A stretch of DNA of 37,551 nucleotides from an uncultured Eisenbergiella sp. (lineage in GTDB: Bacteria; Bacillota; Clostridia; Lachnospirales; Lachnospiraceae). Where the stretch lies: contig CANRMT010000014.1 in assembly GCA_947631815.1 (NCBI GenBank), positions 1 to 37,551 of the forward strand, written 5' to 3'. Positions 8,051-23,102 of this stretch are shown piece by piece. Both the position numbers and the translations under genes were made by a program. The notes under the pieces are model-generated. The model saw only the letters and a program-made list of their open reading frames with translations. It was not told the DNA's origin and did no database searches. Numbering within the stretch: the stretch's first letter is position 1; each line of letters opens with the position of its first letter.

Positions 8051-10183
8051 TTGAAATCCTTCACGCACGAATTTATCCCCGAGTTCCATAAATCCCTCAC
8101 GCCCACCGCCGAGATCAGCGGGTTTCCGGTGCGCCCCGGCATGTTCGACAACAACGGCGCCATCATGCTCCCCGTGGGCGTGAACTTCACCGTGCACACC
8201 CAGGGCGGCACGGCCTGCACCCTGCTCCTGTTTCACCGGGGAGAGGAGGAGCCCTTTGCCCGGCTGCCCTTTCCCGAGGCCTACAAGATCGGCGACGTGT
8301 ATTCCATGATCGTGTTCGGCCTGAACATCGAAGAATTTGAATACGCCTATCAGGTGGACGGCCCCTATGATCCCCAGAAAGGGCTGATCTACGATCCCGC
8401 CAAGGTGCTGCTGGATCCTTATGCTAAGGCCGTGGCGGGCCAGCGGGAATGGGGAGAGAAAAAGCTGGGAAGCTATCACGCCCGCGTGGTGCGCGATGTG
8501 TTCGACTGGGGAGATATGCCGCAGTCCCCACGCAAGATGAGCGACCTGGTCATCTACGAGCTCCACATCCGCGGGTTCACCCGCCACCCCTCCTCGGGCG
8601 TGGCGCATCCCGGCACCTTCTCGGGATTAAAAGAAAAGATCCCCTACTTAAAAGAGCTGGGGATCAACGCGGTGGAGCTGATGCCGATCTTCGAATTTGA
8701 CGAGAACCGCAATTCCCGCACGGTAAACGGGAAAAAGCTCCTGGAATACTGGGGCTATAACACGGTGAGTTTTTTTGCCCCGAATACCAGCTACAACTCC
8801 ACGCCGGAATACAACCGGGAAGGCACGGAGCTGAAGGAGCTGATCAAGACACTGCATGACAGCGGCATCGAAGTGATCCTGGATGTGGTGTTCAACCATA
8901 CGGCGGAAGGAAACGAAAAAGGCCCCACGTTCTGTTTCAAGGGCTTTGACAATAAGGTCTACTACATGCTGACGCCGGAGGGCCATTATTACAATTTCAG
9001 CGGCTGCGGCAATACCCTGAACTGCAACCATCCCGTGGTCCGGCAGATGATCCTGGAATGCCTGCGCTACTGGACCATCAACTACCGGGTGGACGGCTTC
9101 CGCTTCGATCTGGCCAGCATCCTGGGCCGTCAGGAGGACGGCTCTCCCATGAACAACCCGCCGCTTCTGGAGGTGCTTGCCTACGATCCGGTCCTGCGCA
9201 ACGTCAAGCTGATCGCCGAGGCTTGGGACGCAGGCGGCATGTATCAGGTGGGCAGCTTCCCGGCCAGCAAACGCTGGGCGGAGTGGAACGGCCGCTACCG
9301 CGATTCCATCCGCGGGTTCCTGAAAGGGGACTGCTGGCTCTCCTGGGATGCCGCATGGCGCATCGCCGGTTCCGGCGACCTGTACGGCGGCTATTTCGAC
9401 GATCACAACGACAACTACGCCGGTTACAATTCCTGCGTGAATTTCCTGACCTGCCACGACGGCTTCACGCTGTACGATCTGTATTCCTATAATGAAAAGC
9501 ACAATGAGGCCAACGGCTGGAACAATACGGACGGCGCCAACGACAACCGCAGCTGGAACTGCGGCGCGGAGGGCGACACCGATGACCCGGAGGTCCTTTC
9601 CTTACGTTTCCGCATAATCCGCAACGCCTGCGCGGTGCTGATGTGCAGCCGCGGCACGCCCATGTTCTTCGCGGGGGATGAGTTCGGAAATACGCAGTAC
9701 GGCAACAACAACGGCTACTGCCAGGACAACGAGATCTCCTGGCTGGACTGGACCCTTCTGGAGAAAAACAGGGAGCTGTTCGAATTCTTCAAATTCATGA
9801 TCCGATACCGCCAGCGCCACCCGGTCATCCGCAAAAAGCTGCCCAACGCGGTCTGCGGCATGGAGCCCTTACAGGCCCACGACGTCAACGCGGATATCAA
9901 CGATCTTCCTGAGAACACGCGGACCTTCGGCATCAGCTTCGCGGGCTATGACCGGGAGACCGGTCAGGACGATCTGGTCTATGTGGCCGTCAACACTCAT
10001 TGGGAAGACACCGCGATCACGCTTCCCTCCCAGGGGCTGCGCGGCTCCTGGTATTTGAGCGTCAACACCTGGGGCGACGGCGAGGGCCGGTACTGCTACC
10101 CGGAGGGCACGGAGGTACGCATCGACGGCGGATTCGTCATGCGGCCCCGCTCCGTGGCCGTCTTCACAGGACGGCCGCTCTGA
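8051..10183 (+). CDS. glgX: Glycogen debranching enzyme, GH13_11 (GlgX/isoamylase type)
   Basis: Cleaves alpha-1,6 branches of glycogen or imported glucans in the cytoplasm. The start is TTG 8051, with AAGGAG nine bases upstream and the N-terminus MKSFTHEFIPEFHKS; 710 residues is the normal GlgX length. An N-terminal carbohydrate-binding module 48 (about 30-150) precedes the GH13 barrel. The four GH13 conserved regions are all present: DVVFNH (about 278), GFRFDLAS with nucleophile Asp353, AEAWDAGG with acid Glu390, and TCHDGF with His469-Asp470. A C-terminal beta domain follows. No other glycogen genes are next to it. The gene is followed by a long inverted repeat that separates it from a convergent deacetylase. 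Confidence 0.94.
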   Translation: MKSFTHEFIPEFHKSLTPTAEISGFPVRPGMFDNNGAIMLPVGVNFTVHTQGGTACTLLLFHRGEEEPFARLPFPEAYKIGDVYSMIVFGLNIEEFEYAYQVDGPYDPQKGLIYDPAKVLLDPYAKAVAGQREWGEKKLGSYHARVVRDVFDWGDMPQSPRKMSDLVIYELHIRGFTRHPSSGVAHPGTFSGLKEKIPYLKELGINAVELMPIFEFDENRNSRTVNGKKLLEYWGYNTVSFFAPNTSYNSTPEYNREGTELKELIKTLHDSGIEVILDVVFNHTAEGNEKGPTFCFKGFDNKVYYMLTPEGHYYNFSGCGNTLNCNHPVVRQMILECLRYWTINYRVDGFRFDLASILGRQEDGSPMNNPPLLEVLAYDPVLRNVKLIAEAWDAGGMYQVGSFPASKRWAEWNGRYRDSIRGFLKGDCWLSWDAAWRIAGSGDLYGGYFDDHNDNYAGYNSCVNFLTCHDGFTLYDLYSYNEKHNEANGWNNTDGANDNRSWNCGAEGDTDDPEVLSLRFRIIRNACAVLMCSRGTPMFFAGDEFGNTQYGNNNGYCQDNEISWLDWTLLEKNRELFEFFKFMIRYRQRHPVIRKKLPNAVCGMEPLQAHDVNADINDLPENTRTFGISFAGYDRETGQDDLVYVAVNTHWEDTAITLPSQGLRGSWYLSVNTWGDGEGRYCYPEGTEVRIDGGFVMRPRSVAVFTGRPL

Positions 10184-10215
10184 ACGGCGGCGCATAGCCG
10201 CCCCCGTCAAAGAAC

Positions 10216-10419
10216 GGCAGCCGCCCCGGCAGAAAGCGCCGCCCGCGGCCTGTGTGTATTCCATTTTCCCGGACCGTAGAAAAACGCCGGTTCTTAACGA
10301 AGCAAGTCCGCCAGGACGCCGCTGAGTTTAGAACCGCTGCGTTTTTCTCCGAGCGCGAGCGTGTCCGGAAAAGGAATACACACAGGCCGCGGGCGGCGCT
10401 TTCTGCCGGGGCGGCTGCC
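10216..10419. repeat. Long inverted repeat A: perfect 47-bp arms around a 69-bp core
   Basis: Arm 10216-10262 and arm 10373-10419 are exact reverse complements over 47 bp (outer end GGCAGCCGCCCCGGCAGAAA). Shorter matches continue inward (TTTTCC-GGAC), and the centre 10279-10347 is itself an inverted pair (GAAAAACGC ... GCGTTTTTC; CGGTTCT ... AGAACCG). The whole 204 bp can form one long hairpin or cruciform. It lies exactly between the 3' ends of glgX and the deacetylase gene, so a role in ending transcription in both directions is plausible. The 69-bp core is shared, in reverse orientation, with the element at 19523-19700. No ORF is present. Confidence 0.92.
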
Positions 10420-10436
10420 ACACTTTGGCAAAGGCC

Positions 10437-11246
10437 TCAGAGCGCCGTCAGGCAACCGCCTTTGGCCTCCACGATGACATCATCCACGGCCAGCCACGCG
10501 CTGTCCGCCGACGGATTATACACCGCTCCGCAGTCCGCCGTGAAGCGCAGACCGCGCAGAAGCTGCAGATAATCGATGATCTCGATGTTGGTGGCGTACC
10601 AGATATCGGGACGGTTCCCCATCAGCCTGCAGAAATCCTCGATCACCTTCCAGTTATTGCGCTCCGTATTCTGATCGAACTCATAGCTGTGTCCCCAGAC
10701 ATACATCAGCTTCAGATACTGCTTCTTCGGGAAATCCGCGAAATACTGTCCGTACTCCATCAGCTTCGGGTCGCTGTGGTGACAGGTGGGATGCCACTCC
10801 ATGGGATTCTCCGGCAGCGCGAAATCCGGCACGCTTTCCACCACGCGGCCGTATGCGATGCCGAGGCTTGCAAACAGCGTTTCGATCTCCTTCGTATAGG
10901 AGCCGTTGGGATAGGCATGTCCCCTGACCACATATCCGGTGAGCTTCTCCAGCCCCCTGCGGTCCTCCAGGATCTCCTCCGCCACCTCGGAAAGCGGACA
11001 TCTGGCGATGGTCGGATGGTGCTGCGTATGGGTCGCCACCTCATGTCCAAGGTACAGCGTGCCGACCTCCTCCGCCAGGACCCGTTCGCCCCGTTCCATC
11101 AGTCCATAGTTCAGATTGAAGGTCCCGCGGATCCCGTACCGGTTGAAGATCTCCACCAGCTTCCGATCCTGCTCCCTCCCATCGTCATAGCTCATGGTGA
11201 GCGCCTTCGCCTTCCCCTGCGGGAAGCAATAGTAAATGTTCTTCAT
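10437..11246 (-). CDS. Polysaccharide deacetylase family protein (NodB-like)
   Basis: A 269-residue NodB-homology carbohydrate esterase-type protein. ATG 11246 has a strong TAAAGGAGGAAGAAA site. The TMSYDDG motif (about residues 17-23) gives the catalytic/metal Asp pair, and HEVATHTQHHP (about 68-78) gives the metal-binding histidines. RGHAYPNGSY (about 108-117) corresponds to the family's R-PYG motif. There is no signal peptide, so it may be cytoplasmic or act on small substrates. It starts 12 bp after the DUF5722 gene and is almost certainly its operon partner. The substrate is unknown. Confidence 0.85.
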   Translation of the reverse strand: MKNIYYCFPQGKAKALTMSYDDGREQDRKLVEIFNRYGIRGTFNLNYGLMERGERVLAEEVGTLYLGHEVATHTQHHPTIARCPLSEVAEEILEDRRGLEKLTGYVVRGHAYPNGSYTKEIETLFASLGIAYGRVVESVPDFALPENPMEWHPTCHHSDPKLMEYGQYFADFPKKQYLKLMYVWGHSYEFDQNTERNNWKVIEDFCRLMGNRPDIWYATNIEIIDYLQLLRGLRFTADCGAVYNPSADSAWLAVDDVIVEAKGGCLTAL

Positions 11247-16469: not shown

Positions 16470-17315
16470 CTATCTGTTATAGATCCCCATTTTATTGATG
16501 ATGCCCTCCGCATCGATCCCCGGATGCGTCACATAAAGGCGGCAGATCAGCTCTGCCAGTTCCTCCCCGATCCGGTATTTTCCCGCCAGCTCCTTCACGG
16601 GCCGGCCCCTGTCCACGCTGCGCATGATGTCGGACACCAGCTTTTTCAGATCCTTTTCCGGCAGCTGCGCCATATATGCCTCGGGGGAGTCCGCCTTTAA
16701 ACCCTTGGCCGCTTTCTCTCCGGGATCTGCCTTCATTTCGGGAGCATTCGCTCCAAAGGCTCCCGTTTCCCTTCCGAGCGCGCCCACACCGGAGACTCCC
16801 GCATCCGTCCCGGAGTCCGCCTTTTCCGCCCCCGACACATACAGCGTGCCGCCCTGCGTCCCGGCGGGCAGATCCAGCCGTTCCGCTTGCCATCCATTCT
16901 CCGAAACCTTCAGCACCGCCATCGTGACCGGAAGAAGGAAACGCTTCGGGCCGCAGCTCCCGGGATTCAGAAAAAGCCTGCTGCCCTCGCGCCTTTCCTC
17001 GTATTTATGGGTATGACCGCTCAGCACGATATCGCACTCCGGCAGTTCCCCTGCCTTTTTGCGGTTATGGATCAGGAAAAAACGGACGCCGAAGAGCGTG
17101 ACCGACTGCGTTTCCGGCAGGGGCTTTTCCCAATCCCGATCCGTATTGCCCCGCACGGCGTACACGGGCGCGATCGCGGAAAGCCGCTCCAGGATCTCCG
17201 GTCCGCCCACGTCTCCGGCGTGCAGGATCGCGCCGCAGCCTTTCAGCGCTTCCAGCACCTCCTCCCGTAGCAGCCCGTGCGTATCCGAAAGGATCCCGAT
17301 CCTGTTCTCCGCCAT
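16470..17315 (-). CDS. YfcE/MJ0936-type metallophosphoesterase with C-terminal extension
   Basis: Calcineurin-like phosphoesterase, probably cytoplasmic; relatives hydrolyse phosphodiesters in vitro but their physiological substrates are uncertain. The start chosen is ATG 17315 (AAAGGAGGCACAGGAG upstream), giving 281 residues; the track's extra 32 residues are Gly/Pro-rich readthrough of repeats. Motifs are ILSDTHG, LHAGDVG, VRGNTDR and LSGHTHKYEER. The catalytic domain ends near residue 160. An Ala/Gly/Lys-rich low-complexity linker (about 175-215) then joins a helical domain of about 70 residues (LPEKDLKKLVSDIMRSVDRG onward) that normal 160-180 residue family members lack. The role of this tail is unknown. 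Confidence 0.87.
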   Translation of the reverse strand: MAENRIGILSDTHGLLREEVLEALKGCGAILHAGDVGGPEILERLSAIAPVYAVRGNTDRDWEKPLPETQSVTLFGVRFFLIHNRKKAGELPECDIVLSGHTHKYEERREGSRLFLNPGSCGPKRFLLPVTMAVLKVSENGWQAERLDLPAGTQGGTLYVSGAEKADSGTDAGVSGVGALGRETGAFGANAPEMKADPGEKAAKGLKADSPEAYMAQLPEKDLKKLVSDIMRSVDRGRPVKELAGKYRIGEELAELICRLYVTHPGIDAEGIINKMGIYNR

Positions 17316-17546
17316 CTCCTGTGCCTCCTTTTTCCGGACTGTATGTCCGGCCCTTCTGTTCCCGCCCGGGTACATGTTTCCTTCCGGGCAGACATTTCCC
17401 CCTGAGCCCACATCTCCCTTTTCTCCGGGCAGATATTTCTCCCGGCGGCGCTTTCCCGATCCGCAGATCCTTCCCGTAGAAAATCGTTTCCGGCAAAACA
17501 GCCGCTTCCCCGGCGAAAAAACTTCCCGTCCGGCAAAAAAATCCGC

Positions 17547-17575
17547 TTCCCACCGGAGCGGAATATTGCTATACT
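17547..17575 (+). promoter_or_regulatory. Likely AEC transporter promoter; rest of the 17316-17613 gap
   Basis: TTCCCA (17547-17552), 17 bp, then TATACT (17570-17575) resembles a sigma-A promoter about 40 bp before the AEC start. The remaining divergent gap holds degenerate direct repeats: CCGGGCAGAYATTTC-like units near 17390-17455 and TCCGGCAAAA-like units near 17488-17545. A small GTCGG/CCGAC hairpin precedes the ribosome binding site. Nothing else was recognised. Confidence 0.45.
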
Positions 17576-17613
17576 ATATCCGTCGGCCTTTTGCCCGACA
17601 GGGAGGTTCTTCC

Positions 17614-18546
17614 ATGAATATCATGATCGTGATCCAGCAGATGTGCGTCATGCTGATCCTCATTCTGACCGGCTGTTTTCTCTTCCGGAAAAACAGGCTC
17701 AGCGAGGAATCCGCGGGCCATATCTCCGGCCTGGTGGTGAATATCTGCAATCCCGCGGCCCTGATCTGCTCCGCCTTCGACGAGGGGCCCCGGCTTTCGG
17801 TCCCGGAGCTTGCCTTTTCCTTCGGCGTGATGCTTCTCCTATATCTGGTCCTGATCGCGGCGGGCACCCTGTTCCCGCTCCTTCTGGGGATAAAAAAAGA
17901 AAAGCGTTATCTGTATCACCTGCTGACGGTATACGGCAACGTGGGCTTTCTGGGGATCCCGCTGGTTACCGCCGTCCTCGGAAACAGCGCGCTCATCTAT
18001 GTCTCGATCAACAACCTGATCTACAATCTTCTGTTCTATACCAGCGGCCTTTCCATTCTGCGCAGAAAGGCCGGACTGAAGGGAGGGAACGGGCTTCGGG
18101 ATACCCTGTCCGGCTTTGTCAACATCGGCACCGTTTCCGCCCTGCTGACCATCGTGCTCTACATCATCGATCCGCCCGTGCCCGCCGTGCTGTCGGAAAC
18201 CGTCACCTATGCAGGCCGCTGCACCACGCTGCTGTCCATGCTGGTGCTCGGCGTTTCCGTGGCCCGGCTGCCCATCCGGGAGATCTTTTCCCACAAAAAG
18301 GACTATCTGTTCCTCGCGCTGCGCCTCGTGCTGCTGCCCGTGGGCTGCGTAGTCTGCCTGCGCCCGTTTCTGTCTAACCCGCTGCTGGCGGGCACCTGTG
18401 CCCTGCTGCTGGCCGCGCCCTGCGGCAATCTGCCGCTGATGTGTTCCAAACAGTTCGGGCTGGAAACGGATACGCTGGCGCGGACCATCGTTCTCGCCAC
18501 TCTGCTCTCCGTGCTCACGATCCCCATCGTCGTGATGTTTTTGTAA
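17614..18546 (+). CDS. AEC family transporter (auxin efflux carrier-like)
   Basis: A 310-residue integral membrane protein with about ten hydrophobic helices in two five-helix halves, the AEC/bile-acid transporter layout. The family exports or exchanges organic acids such as malate; the substrate here is unknown. ATG 17614 (GGGAGG seven bases upstream) is chosen over the track start at 17059, which reads back through the divergent phosphoesterase. Family traits include NICNPAALI in the first half (near the broken helix), VYGNVGFLGIPLV and, in the second half, LLAAPCGNLPLMCSKQF. It is convergent with rpe across a 35-bp tandem array that contains U-rich hairpin sequences and may serve as its terminator. 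Confidence 0.92.
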   Translation: MNIMIVIQQMCVMLILILTGCFLFRKNRLSEESAGHISGLVVNICNPAALICSAFDEGPRLSVPELAFSFGVMLLLYLVLIAAGTLFPLLLGIKKEKRYLYHLLTVYGNVGFLGIPLVTAVLGNSALIYVSINNLIYNLLFYTSGLSILRRKAGLKGGNGLRDTLSGFVNIGTVSALLTIVLYIIDPPVPAVLSETVTYAGRCTTLLSMLVLGVSVARLPIREIFSHKKDYLFLALRLVLLPVGCVVCLRPFLSNPLLAGTCALLLAAPCGNLPLMCSKQFGLETDTLARTIVLATLLSVLTIPIVVMFL

Positions 18547-19486: not shown

Positions 19487-19522
19487 GCCCTTTCCCACTC
19501 CCGCCCGCAGGAAACCGCCGCC

Positions 19523-19700
19523 CGGCCTGGGTCAGCGCACGGGGAGGGGATGGGGATTCTGCAGACACGCTTTCGCTTCGTGAAAAACGCAGCGGTTCTA
19601 AGCTCAGTTTCGCCTTGTCAGGCTCACTTCGCTAAGAACCGGCGTTTTTCAAGAGTCTGCATGAATTCCCCATCCCCTCCACGCGTGCTGACCCAGGCCG
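19523..19700. repeat. Long inverted repeat B: same 69-bp core as A, different arms
   Basis: The outer arms are imperfect reverse complements about 45-48 bp long (CGGCCTGGGTCAGC on the left; GCTGACCCAGGCCG on the right; GAGGGGATGGGGA against TCCCCATCCCCTC). They bear no resemblance to the arms of element A. The centre 19582-19650 matches the reverse complement of A's centre 10279-10347 at 57 of 69 positions by hand count, including the first 20 and last 9 bases. Similarity continues about 18 bp on one side (GACACGCT). The element occupies the divergent region between rpe and the DUF885 gene and codes for nothing visible. Confidence 0.88.
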
Positions 19701-19714
19701 ATCCGAGATTTACC

Positions 19715-19770: not shown

Positions 19771-21684
19771 TTGAAAAAGAAAAAATATTTCTTTTGCTGT
19801 GCCGCGCTGGTCTGCCTGCTGGGCCTGTGCTGGTTCGGTTCTCAAAGATTCGACAGTCTCTGTTTCCGACATCTGACGGATGCTTTTTTCGTCCAGTCCC
19901 TGGAGGGCGATCCTTTGAGTCTCCATTTTACGCTGGCGCAGCCGGAGCAGTTCGGCGTATCGCCCGATTCCTGTTCTCTGCCGGTCTACGATCCGGACAG
20001 CTCCGGGAAATCCGCGGCCGCAGCGCAGGATCTGCTGGACCGTCTTTCCAGACTCCGTCCCGATCATCTCAAGGACGAAGAGCGCTATACCCGGGAGCTG
20101 CTGATCTCCTACCTGAACACCGCGCTGGAGGGACAGCAGTTCGCCCTGTATGACGAGCCGTTCTCCCCCTCCTCCGGCATGCAGGGAGAACTGCCCCTTC
20201 TGCTGGCGGAATACACGCTGCGCAGCGAAAAGGACGCGGCCGATTATCTCTCCCTCCTGGAATCCGTCCCTTCTTATCTGCAGGGGCTTTCCGATTATGA
20301 AGCCGCCAAAGCACGGGCCGGGCTTTTCATGCCGGAGGAAGATGCCCTGCGGGCGGCGGCGCAGTGCGGCAGCATTATGGATGCCTCCGCGCTGGAAAAG
20401 GGAACCCATTTTCTGCAGACGACCCTTCGGGACAGACTGGACACGCTTCTTACGCAGGGCGCCCTCACCGAAGAACAGCGAAACCTCTATCTCTCGGAAA
20501 ATGACCGTCTGCTCACGGAATCGGTCCTTCCGGCCTACCAGGAGCTGGCCGACGATCTGATCCTGCTGTCAAAAAGCGGCCGAAAGGAGGGCGGGCTGTG
20601 TGAACTGCCGAAGGGACGGGCGTATTACGCCTGGTTGGTCAAAAAAAACACCGGCACCCGGCTGGACATGGACAGCCTTTACACTGTCCTGCGGAAATCC
20701 TTCCGCAAGAACTTTGAAACGCTGAAGGCCCTCGTGTCCCAATATCGGGAAATGACCGGCAGCCTGCCGGATCCTGCTTCTCTGTCCGACGGCTTTCCGA
20801 TCACCGATCCATCCGGCATCCTGGCCGACCTGCAGCAGAAAATGCAGGCGGATTTTCCGCCCCTGACTGCGCTTTCCGATAGCGGCATTTCCTGCACCGT
20901 CAAAAACGTGGACGCGGCGCTGGAATCCTATACCAGCCCGGCCTTTTATATGTCCCCGCCCATCGACGATCTTTTTCACAACACGATCTGCATCAACCGT
21001 TCCTCCACCTCGGACGGGATCGAGCTGTACACCACGCTGGCCCATGAAGGATATCCCGGCCATCTCTATCAGACCGTATATTCTTCCCTCTACGGCTCCG
21101 TCCAAAACGGTCAGCGGGTCCGGGAGCTTCTCTTTTACGGCGGATACGTGGAGGGCTGGGCCTATTATACGGAACAGCTTTCCTACGATTATGCCGCGCA
21201 GCTTCTCGCCGCATCCGGCGCGCCGGACGCCTCCGTCCTGCTGTGCCGCCTCACCTCCGTCCAGCGGGACCTGCAGATCAGCTTGTATTCCCTGCTGGAC
21301 ATGGCCCTCCACTACTACGGCACGGCCAAACCGGATATCCTGCGCTCGCTCACGTCCTTCGGCCTTCCCGCCGAAACGGCGGAGCGCGTATACGATTACC
21401 TGCGCACCGACCCTGCCGTCTATCTGAAATATTACGTGGGCTTCCTGGAGATGCGCGCGCTGCGCGCCCGGGCCGAGGCGCTGTGGGACGACGCCTTCAC
21501 GCCGCTTCGGTTCCATCAGTTCGTGCTGGAGGCGGGGCCCTCCGATTTCACCAGTCTCAACCGGCGGCTCACGGAGCAGGCCGGGACTCACAGCAGTACA
21601 GCTCAAACCTGTTCCGCCAGGATCTCTTCGATCCTGGACATATCCAGATTTTCCCGCAGCGCAGCGGCCAGCAGGTCATACTGA
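19771..21684 (+). CDS. DUF885 family protein (putative zinc peptidase)
   Basis: A 637-residue protein of the DUF885 family, which has a metallopeptidase-like fold and motif. The start is TTG 19771, opening with MKKKKYFFCC. An N-terminal hydrophobic stretch (about 5-22) suggests a signal peptide or anchor, so the bulk is extracytoplasmic. The family motif HEGYPGH (in TTLAHEGYPGHLYQ, about residue 427) and the downstream EGWAYYTEQL are both present and likely bind zinc. A tiny frame (MSGILL) before it ends in a TGA that overlaps the TTG, so coupling is possible. The 3' end overlaps the convergent cbiP gene by 82 bp; the last 25-30 residues are Ser/Ala-rich and look like readthrough past an ancestral stop. 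Confidence 0.85.
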   Translation: MKKKKYFFCCAALVCLLGLCWFGSQRFDSLCFRHLTDAFFVQSLEGDPLSLHFTLAQPEQFGVSPDSCSLPVYDPDSSGKSAAAAQDLLDRLSRLRPDHLKDEERYTRELLISYLNTALEGQQFALYDEPFSPSSGMQGELPLLLAEYTLRSEKDAADYLSLLESVPSYLQGLSDYEAAKARAGLFMPEEDALRAAAQCGSIMDASALEKGTHFLQTTLRDRLDTLLTQGALTEEQRNLYLSENDRLLTESVLPAYQELADDLILLSKSGRKEGGLCELPKGRAYYAWLVKKNTGTRLDMDSLYTVLRKSFRKNFETLKALVSQYREMTGSLPDPASLSDGFPITDPSGILADLQQKMQADFPPLTALSDSGISCTVKNVDAALESYTSPAFYMSPPIDDLFHNTICINRSSTSDGIELYTTLAHEGYPGHLYQTVYSSLYGSVQNGQRVRELLFYGGYVEGWAYYTEQLSYDYAAQLLAASGAPDASVLLCRLTSVQRDLQISLYSLLDMALHYYGTAKPDILRSLTSFGLPAETAERVYDYLRTDPAVYLKYYVGFLEMRALRARAEALWDDAFTPLRFHQFVLEAGPSDFTSLNRRLTEQAGTHSSTAQTCSARISSILDISRFSRSAAASRSY

Positions 21685-23102
21685 CCCTGCAGAAAAGCGG
21701 CCGTATCCGTCTCCTGTACCGGTCCCTCACAGGAGAGCCCCCTGCGGGAAAGGAGCAGCTTTTCCAGGGCCGCAGCCGCGTCCCGGTCGAACAGGCCGTG
21801 AAGATAAGTGCCCGCCACGTTTCCTCTCACGGCCCCTTCCCCGCTGCCGTCAGCCAGGCGGCAAAAGGGAGAGGTATCTTTGCCGGGCGTCGAGATCCCC
21901 ATATGGATCTGATAGCCCGAAAACGCCGCTCCCGTCAGCGGTCCGAAAATGCCCTCCGGCGGTTCGATGACGCCCTCCGACCGAAGTCTCGTTTTCCGGG
22001 CGGCAAAGACCGTCTCCAGAGGCAGAAGGCCCATTCCGCGCATTTCTCCTCCCCGTTCGGTCCCTTCGGGATCCGACAGGCGCTCTCCCAGCATCTGATA
22101 GCCGCCGCAGATCCCCAACACAGGCGTTCCCGCCGCCGCTGCCTTTTGGACCAGCGCCTCCAGCCCGTTCTGACGCATCCATTCCAGATCCGCCATCGTG
22201 CTTTTCGTGCCGGGCAGGATCACCATGTCCGGACGGCCGAATTCCGCCGGGCGGCCGACGTAACGCACATGGACCGCGGGCCGCCGCTGCAGCGGGTTGA
22301 AATCGGTGGAATTGGAAATGCGCGGAAAACGGATCACTGCGATCTCCAGCGGCCTGCGCTCCTTATTTTCCCGCTGGATCACGCTGTCCTCCTCATCGAT
22401 ATCCAGCTGCAGATAAGGCACCACCCCGATCACGGGAACGCCGGTCAGGTCCTCTATCATGCGCAGTCCGGGCCGCAGGATCTCCACGTCTCCCCGGAAC
22501 TTGTTGATGATCACGCCCCGGATCCGCCTCCGCCATGCAGGAGGCAGCAGCATGATCGTCCCGTAGATCTGCGCGAAAACGCCGCCCCGGTCGATATCCG
22601 CCGTCAGCAGGACCGGCGCGTCGAACATGTCCGCGATCCCCATGTTCACCAGATCGTCCTGATTCAGATTGATCTCCGCCGGACTTCCCGCGCCCTCTAT
22701 CACGATCCGCTCATACTCCTGCGCCAGCAGGTCGAACGCCTGCCGTATCGTGCCGCGCAGGGAAGGGCGGTAACGGTAGTACTCTTCGGCGTGCATGACG
22801 CCGACCGCCTCTCCGTTTACGATCACCTGACTTCCCATATCCGTACAGGGCTTCAGCAGGATCGGATTCATCCGCACGGAGGGTTCGGCACAGGCCGCCT
22901 GCGCCTGTACCGCCTGTGCCCTGCCTATCTCCAGTCCGTCCTCCGTGATAAAGCTGTTGAGCGCCATGTTCTGACTTTTAAACGGCGCGACGCGATATCC
23001 GTCCTGATGAAAAATGCGGCAAAGACCCGTCGCGATCAGGCTCTTTCCCGCGCTCGACATGGTTCCCTGGATCATGATCCGTTTCGCCATGGCTGAACTC
23101 AT
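21603..23102 (-). CDS. cbiP: Cobyric acid synthase
   Basis: ATP- and glutamine-dependent amidation of adenosylcobyrinic acid a,c-diamide to adenosylcobyric acid in the cytoplasm. It has 499 residues, full length. ATG 23102 is chosen because AAGGAG sits five bases upstream of it; the ATG at 23090 would be too far. The N-terminal dethiobiotin synthetase-like ATPase domain has MIQGTMSSAGKS and PFKSQNMALNS. The C-terminal class I amidotransferase domain has the nucleophile motif LGICGGYQMLG and the terminal GTYLHGLFD. It is the last gene of the cobalamin cluster, 10 bp after cobD. Also called cobQ. Confidence 0.96.
   Translation of the reverse strand: MSSAMAKRIMIQGTMSSAGKSLIATGLCRIFHQDGYRVAPFKSQNMALNSFITEDGLEIGRAQAVQAQAACAEPSVRMNPILLKPCTDMGSQVIVNGEAVGVMHAEEYYRYRPSLRGTIRQAFDLLAQEYERIVIEGAGSPAEINLNQDDLVNMGIADMFDAPVLLTADIDRGGVFAQIYGTIMLLPPAWRRRIRGVIINKFRGDVEILRPGLRMIEDLTGVPVIGVVPYLQLDIDEEDSVIQRENKERRPLEIAVIRFPRISNSTDFNPLQRRPAVHVRYVGRPAEFGRPDMVILPGTKSTMADLEWMRQNGLEALVQKAAAAGTPVLGICGGYQMLGERLSDPEGTERGGEMRGMGLLPLETVFAARKTRLRSEGVIEPPEGIFGPLTGAAFSGYQIHMGISTPGKDTSPFCRLADGSGEGAVRGNVAGTYLHGLFDRDAAAALEKLLLSRRGLSCEGPVQETDTAAFLQGQYDLLAAALRENLDMSRIEEILAEQV

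Follow-up and report, generated by a model that had tools for sequence, protein, structure and literature searches.

We found that the window, a 37,551-nucleotide stretch of uncultured Eisenbergiella sp. DNA, contains two copies of a hairpin-forming repeat from a real and widespread family that occurs in many Lachnospiraceae of the gut. The family is apparently undescribed, and we place it among the dispersed palindromes and MITEs, not in a class of its own. The account that we consider reasonably probable is that of an old family of dispersed imperfect palindromes, restricted to Lachnospiraceae, whose arms are homogenised by template switching and whose cores are flipped, exchanged and sometimes transposed.

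Copies in the window and across the genome

The core of copy 1, matched by BLAST to 40 copies in the same genome, lies at 19582-19650 (+) and reads GAAAAACGC-AG-CGGTTCT ... AGAACCG-GCGTTTTTC around an apical hairpin. The earlier note had counted about 57 of 69 positions in common with the reverse complement of 10279-10347, and recomputation gave exactly 57 (82.6% over 69 bp). To its left is a conserved junction strand, ACGCTTTCGCTTCGT (19567-19581, +), which contains the mini-hairpin GC-TTTC-GC; its consensus, RCGCTYNCGCTYCGT, is conserved outside the search pattern used below. The locus-specific left arm (19521-19566, +) is identical at 41 of 46 positions to the reverse complement of the right arm, which flank comparison places at 19655-19700 (+). 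A repeat search returned inverted arms at 19512-19556 and 19667-19711 (45 nt, 82%), and the covariance model matched 19562-19659 with 106 bits. Copy 2 lies on the minus strand and belongs to the other of two subfamilies. Its core (10279-10347) falls within a covariance-model match at 10270-10367 (103.8 bits), and an inverted-repeat search placed its arms at 10188-10266 and 10369-10447, 79 nt each and 84% complementary. The arms of copy 2 are longer than the 45-48 bp given in the earlier note. Both window copies fold far more stably than chance would give, with z-scores of -13.8 and -18.5 against dinucleotide shuffles.

Copy 2 begins 5 bp past the stop codon of an amylase-domain ORF (8051-10183, +; Pfam), and copy 1 is flanked by a Mem_trans gene (17059-18546, +) and a DUF885 gene (19771-21684, +). 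The window also holds a CobB/CobQ-like gene (21603-23102, -). The sole Rfam match in the window was a cobalamin riboswitch (RF00174, 32352-32530, -, 77.7 bits), the element having no match above the gathering score, and at eight other loci the search gave nothing beyond tRNAs and some weak miRNA hairpins that scored far under the threshold.

The source genome (2.75 Mb in 176 contigs) gave 41 BLAST matches, which include the query matching itself in antisense, and so holds at least 40 copies; copy counts here come from BLAST and covariance-model searches in which a limited number of candidates was scored per genome. At every copy examined (40 of 40) the left and right flanks are mutually reverse-complementary, as the earlier note had predicted, with arms of 46-109 bp. 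The local alignment score between flanks had a median of 109 and a minimum of 63, while flanks from mismatched loci gave a median of 22 and a 99th percentile of 50. Since these alignments begin about 15 nt to the left of the core and 4-5 nt to its right, what lies between the arms is a conserved junction of asymmetric shape. In the predicted fold, the conserved core of about 90 nt forms a three-way junction, a stem with a bulge and an apical hairpin that varies.

The arms had been described as unrelated between loci. We found that they are locus-specific but not wholly unrelated: in the larger subfamily a remnant, GGCAGAAAGCGCCGCC, is common to many arms and the 99th percentile of the cross-locus arm score is 41, against 24 for reversed and 20 for shuffled arms, and copies in two further MAGs have arms that resemble each other. 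A conserved core between locus-specific matching arms recurs in an unrelated genus (genome G116), where seven copies have nearly identical cores (five look identical) and different matching outer arms. Among 32 copies from diverse genera the arms are complementary as a group (own median 48.5, cross 99th percentile 24). A tandem array of an arm unit of about 36 bp lies to the left of the element at L016 in the source genome and to the right of it at L150 in the sister species G002.

Distribution and mobility of the family

A pattern scan of species genomes returned at least 93 stretches from MAGs labelled Lachnospiraceae, Blautia, Eisenbergiella, Butyrivibrio and others; because the scan pattern fixed GAAAAACGCAGCGG and CCGGCGTTTTTC, these two motifs are invariant by design. 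From 25 copies we built a covariance model, R1; it matched in 110 of 299 sampled Lachnospiraceae genera, scoring no more than 13 candidates in each genome. In the samples of other families, of the order and of the class, no match was listed outside Lachnospiraceae under stricter filters that lose weak matches. We found no relevant description of a Lachnospiraceae repeat like this element in the open literature, subscription papers and preprints being outside the scope. The earlier suggestion of an undescribed repeat family is supported. An origin from phages or plasmids was rejected, since an exact pattern search of viral contigs and BLAST searches of phages and plasmids each gave no match.

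In two MAGs (JAMPFM and JAMPHJ; G041, G042) the element forms a unit of about 224 bp (221-240 bp) with CACGGAAATCAATTTTCAGTCAGC at both ends as terminal inverted repeats, and the arms are common to the copies. The identity of the target duplication peaks at 9 bp (0.64, against 0.25-0.36 at 7, 8, 10 and 11 bp; n = 19), with a mean identity of 5.7/9 compared with 2.4/9 for mismatched copies (n = 19). Beyond the ends the flanking DNA shows no complementarity (own 10-17, cross mean 14). Because these copies share their arms and the DNA outside is non-complementary, the arms arrive with the insert, and no other observation shows this as clearly. We counted the two MAGs as one lineage because they are probably close relatives. 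The JAMPHJ record, 'Muribaculaceae bacterium' NALB_7961_20, carries elements (L053 and other loci) near-identical to those of 'Blautia sp.' NALB_7861_7; L080 and L121 are apparently orthologous between the two, and the 'Muribaculaceae' label looks wrong.

In the source genus no intact terminal inverted repeats or target duplications were seen, the window copies included. Outside the JAMPFM/JAMPHJ lineage such an anatomy is clear only in three copies of genome G298, as judged by eye. In G298 (L254-L258) one inner palindrome occurs with two kinds of outer ends: of just four such copies, read by eye, these three bear GTAACAG ends and apparent 8-bp duplications, and the remaining one joins that inner body to CATGGAAATC-type ends. 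A Pfam scan of ten ORFs near unpaired ends did not find a transposase carrying CACGGAAATCAATTTTCAGTCAGC ends; it returned one Transposase_31 (YhgA-like) ORF, around which no matching pair of ends was judged present on inspection, and otherwise mostly ordinary genes. At L197, a very short core-less derivative with MITE ends (1540-1615) adjoins a Transposase_31 (YhgA-like) ORF. When ORFs around 80 loci were clustered, no gene recurred that we took as a candidate partner. We take the repeat to be, most probably, a selfish element that is non-autonomous and moved by a transposase of the host.

Like MITEs, the element in JAMPFM and JAMPHJ is a short non-coding unit with terminal inverted repeats and a fixed-length target duplication; unlike them, it has a structured interior conserved across genera, and its arms, and probably its ends, vary by lineage. 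ERIC/IRU and Correia-type imperfect palindromes have the same arms at every copy. The element resembles these in length, hairpin form and intergenic dispersal, but in two genera its arms are locus-specific. With REP and REPIN sequences it shares the many dispersed intergenic palindromes per genome; those, however, are short palindromes of 20-40 bp with a GTAG tag and RAYT transposases (PMC3733652), whereas the element spans about 150-220 bp and has clear target duplications in one lineage. On a plain reading of the consensus we noted no GTAG (or CGTC) tag.

Concerted arms and exchanged cores at orthologous loci

The family is present in two sister species, G002 and G006; nine other sampled congeners gave no match and G010 gave one marginal 39-bp match. 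We searched G002 and G006 with the flanks of 34 loci, a set that left aside L022 and five loci near contig ends, and the majority were occupied in one or both species. At these orthologous loci the arms are inherited and change in concert, while the core inverts between them and swaps with other loci. Matched arm substitutions numbered 87 over all comparisons, with 27.8 expected by permutation, and 35 with 8.1 expected (maximum 14 of 500) when three comparisons with replaced arms were left out. Arm gap columns were mirrored in 11 cases and one-sided in 2. The pair L031/L168 shows six concerted changes and no one-sided change, and at L010 the arms differ between species on both sides and still match.

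The cores behave differently from the arms. L028 and L178 have both arms nearly identical and cores just 75% identical, the core was closer to that of another locus in 9 of 23 orthologue comparisons, and four further alleles (L174, L175, L177 and L185) have longer, chimeric cores. In 11 of 27 comparisons, rows counted by eye, the core was inverted relative to its flanks; this is so for the window copy at 19582, whose core is inverted in G002. Since cores change and are exchanged while the arms stay, identical cores do not date the arms or the insertion. At the sister-species orthologues of the copy at 10279 (L151, L152) there is about 1.4 kb of extra DNA and a second partial element, and in the source genome the segment between two copies may have been lost.

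Apparent empty alleles were read at eleven loci of the source genome and at six of seven loci of the genus of G116. The alleles of L033, L251, L253 and L249 retain one arm or part of the element, with junctions at short direct repeats at L033 (GCGCATTC) and L249 (ATACAGT); the sister allele of L017, with one arm and the direct repeat CTGCCG, fits deletion likewise. Because one arm is kept and the ends fall at short direct repeats, at least these five look like deletion scars and not virgin sites. Neither arm is present in the sister alleles of L045, L031 and L248, which could be virgin sites. L039, whose sister allele holds one arm only, L013 and L023, which have a short hairpin at the site, L016 and the remaining empty alleles are ambiguous. 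The comparison with empty sites proposed earlier gave only part of an answer, the sister alleles having no independent polarity: several look like deletions and others can be read either way.

Explanations for the matched arms

Template switching between inverted repeats homogenises their arms and inverts the spacer (PMC8604942), and it produces instantaneous compensatory changes (PMC8794818). During replication of the element, a nascent strand would switch template between the two arms, rewriting one from the other and flipping the spacer, and each locus would gain its own matching arms over time. The core would be kept similar by exchange between copies, by constraint or by both; copies would be lost through slippage between short direct repeats; and dispersal would occur, at least sometimes, as a non-autonomous transposon. 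The element shows both hallmarks of quasipalindromes that undergo template switching, namely matched changes of several bases and inversion of the spacer, and arm homogenisation, spacer inversion and instantaneous paired changes are common to it and the published cases. In the core of diverse copies, too, 254 changed cells are two-sided against 18 one-sided, and few are G-U. In those the spacer inversions are substitutions of 2-5 bp (PMC8604942, PMC8794818), whereas the element is a repeat family with at least 40 copies per genome and arms of 46-109 bp. We infer from such footprints in the sequences that template switching produced the concerted arm changes and the inversions; recombination between inverted arms would flip the core too, and selection for pairing would also give matched changes.

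Selection for pairing is central to a second explanation, which we regard as rather unlikely, namely that purifying selection maintains the element as a structured non-coding RNA, or as single-stranded DNA whose fold a protein recognises. The mini-hairpin RCGCTYNCGCTY and the motifs ACGY-AR-CRGTAC-TAA and TAAGTACYG-RCGT are invariant across genera; variable parts are the apical hairpin, the outer arms and the outer portion of the second stem. This conservation of the junction, the AR bulge, the CRGTAC/GTACYG stem and an A.A mismatch fits selection on a fold, as does the covariation. In 33 diverse copies 25 of 30 core pairs show double changes, and 96.4% of cells are paired, with double changes far above the shuffled and slid controls; the alignment is model-fitted, and those controls include three weak antisense rows that the 254-to-18 count omits. 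In 4 of 35 sequences both partners of the two GC pairs of the mini-hairpin are changed, no sequence leaves these pairs unpaired, and the L247 core is unchanged in relatives of G116 whose flanks differ by 7-8%. However, G-U intermediates are very few (25 cells, 14 of them in one column), the changes at L031/L168 are all concerted, orientation is random with respect to genes and flips between species, copies are often lost and Rfam has no match. Among wobble mismatches in the arms, read on the core strand, G-T outnumbers A-C (231 to 177, p = 0.009). This slight excess may point to a degree of constraint on one folded strand, and it is compatible with selection on a folded strand that may act besides template switching. 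An RNA strand bias was rejected, whole-element folding favouring the core strand in only 10 of 40 copies of the source genome.

It is also conceivable, if unlikely, that the junction core is the recognition site of a hairpin-handling enzyme that actively flips and replaces cores within fixed arms, and that rewriting of the outer arms swaps the transposon ends. If true, the element would be a self-templating palindrome able to change which transposase moves it, and the two end types around one inner body in G298 would be read in this way.

The earlier note had offered two origins for the matched arms. We favour its proposal that they are kept matched by conversion, given that changes are concerted and one-sided changes near-absent. 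Its other proposal, in which a bare core inserts and flanking DNA is turned into new arms by fold-back synthesis during that insertion, we consider improbable. It would suit the seven near-identical cores with differing matched outer arms in G116, the one-arm sister alleles of L017 and L039, and L010. Against it, the MITE-like copies of JAMPFM and JAMPHJ, with their 9-bp target duplications, have arms in common, which the earlier note itself had named as a refutation, and flanks beyond the ends that are not complementary; loci swap cores while their arms stay in place, so that a shared core is no date for insertion; and one-arm alleles can be short-repeat deletions, as the repeats at L017, L033 and L249 indicate. 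Very improbable is a core that lands as a mobile module in the loops of pre-existing long palindromes such as terminators: the short hairpins in the L023 and L013 sister alleles would suit it, but arms of 46-109 bp stand at all 40 sites, the L045, L031 and L248 sister alleles have no arm at all, and there is no enrichment at convergent gene pairs. A bidirectional terminator, with A5/T5 around a GC stem in the core, was rejected, as convergent gaps made up 12 of 51 against a background of 34 of 168 (gaps of at least 150 bp) and tandem neighbours showed no strand preference (9 and 11); these counts use rough longest-ORF gene calls, with 18 copies inside spurious or real ORFs.

The element is present in about a third of the sampled Lachnospiraceae genera, often in at least ten copies. 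Dozens of natural replicates are thus at hand, a record of how one palindrome half may be rewritten from the other, in which template switching and palindrome loss can be measured in bacterial genomes. Strong covariation can arise with few wobble intermediates, which calls for caution in taking covariation alone as evidence of RNA function. The element may also illustrate how a non-autonomous element exchanges its ends.
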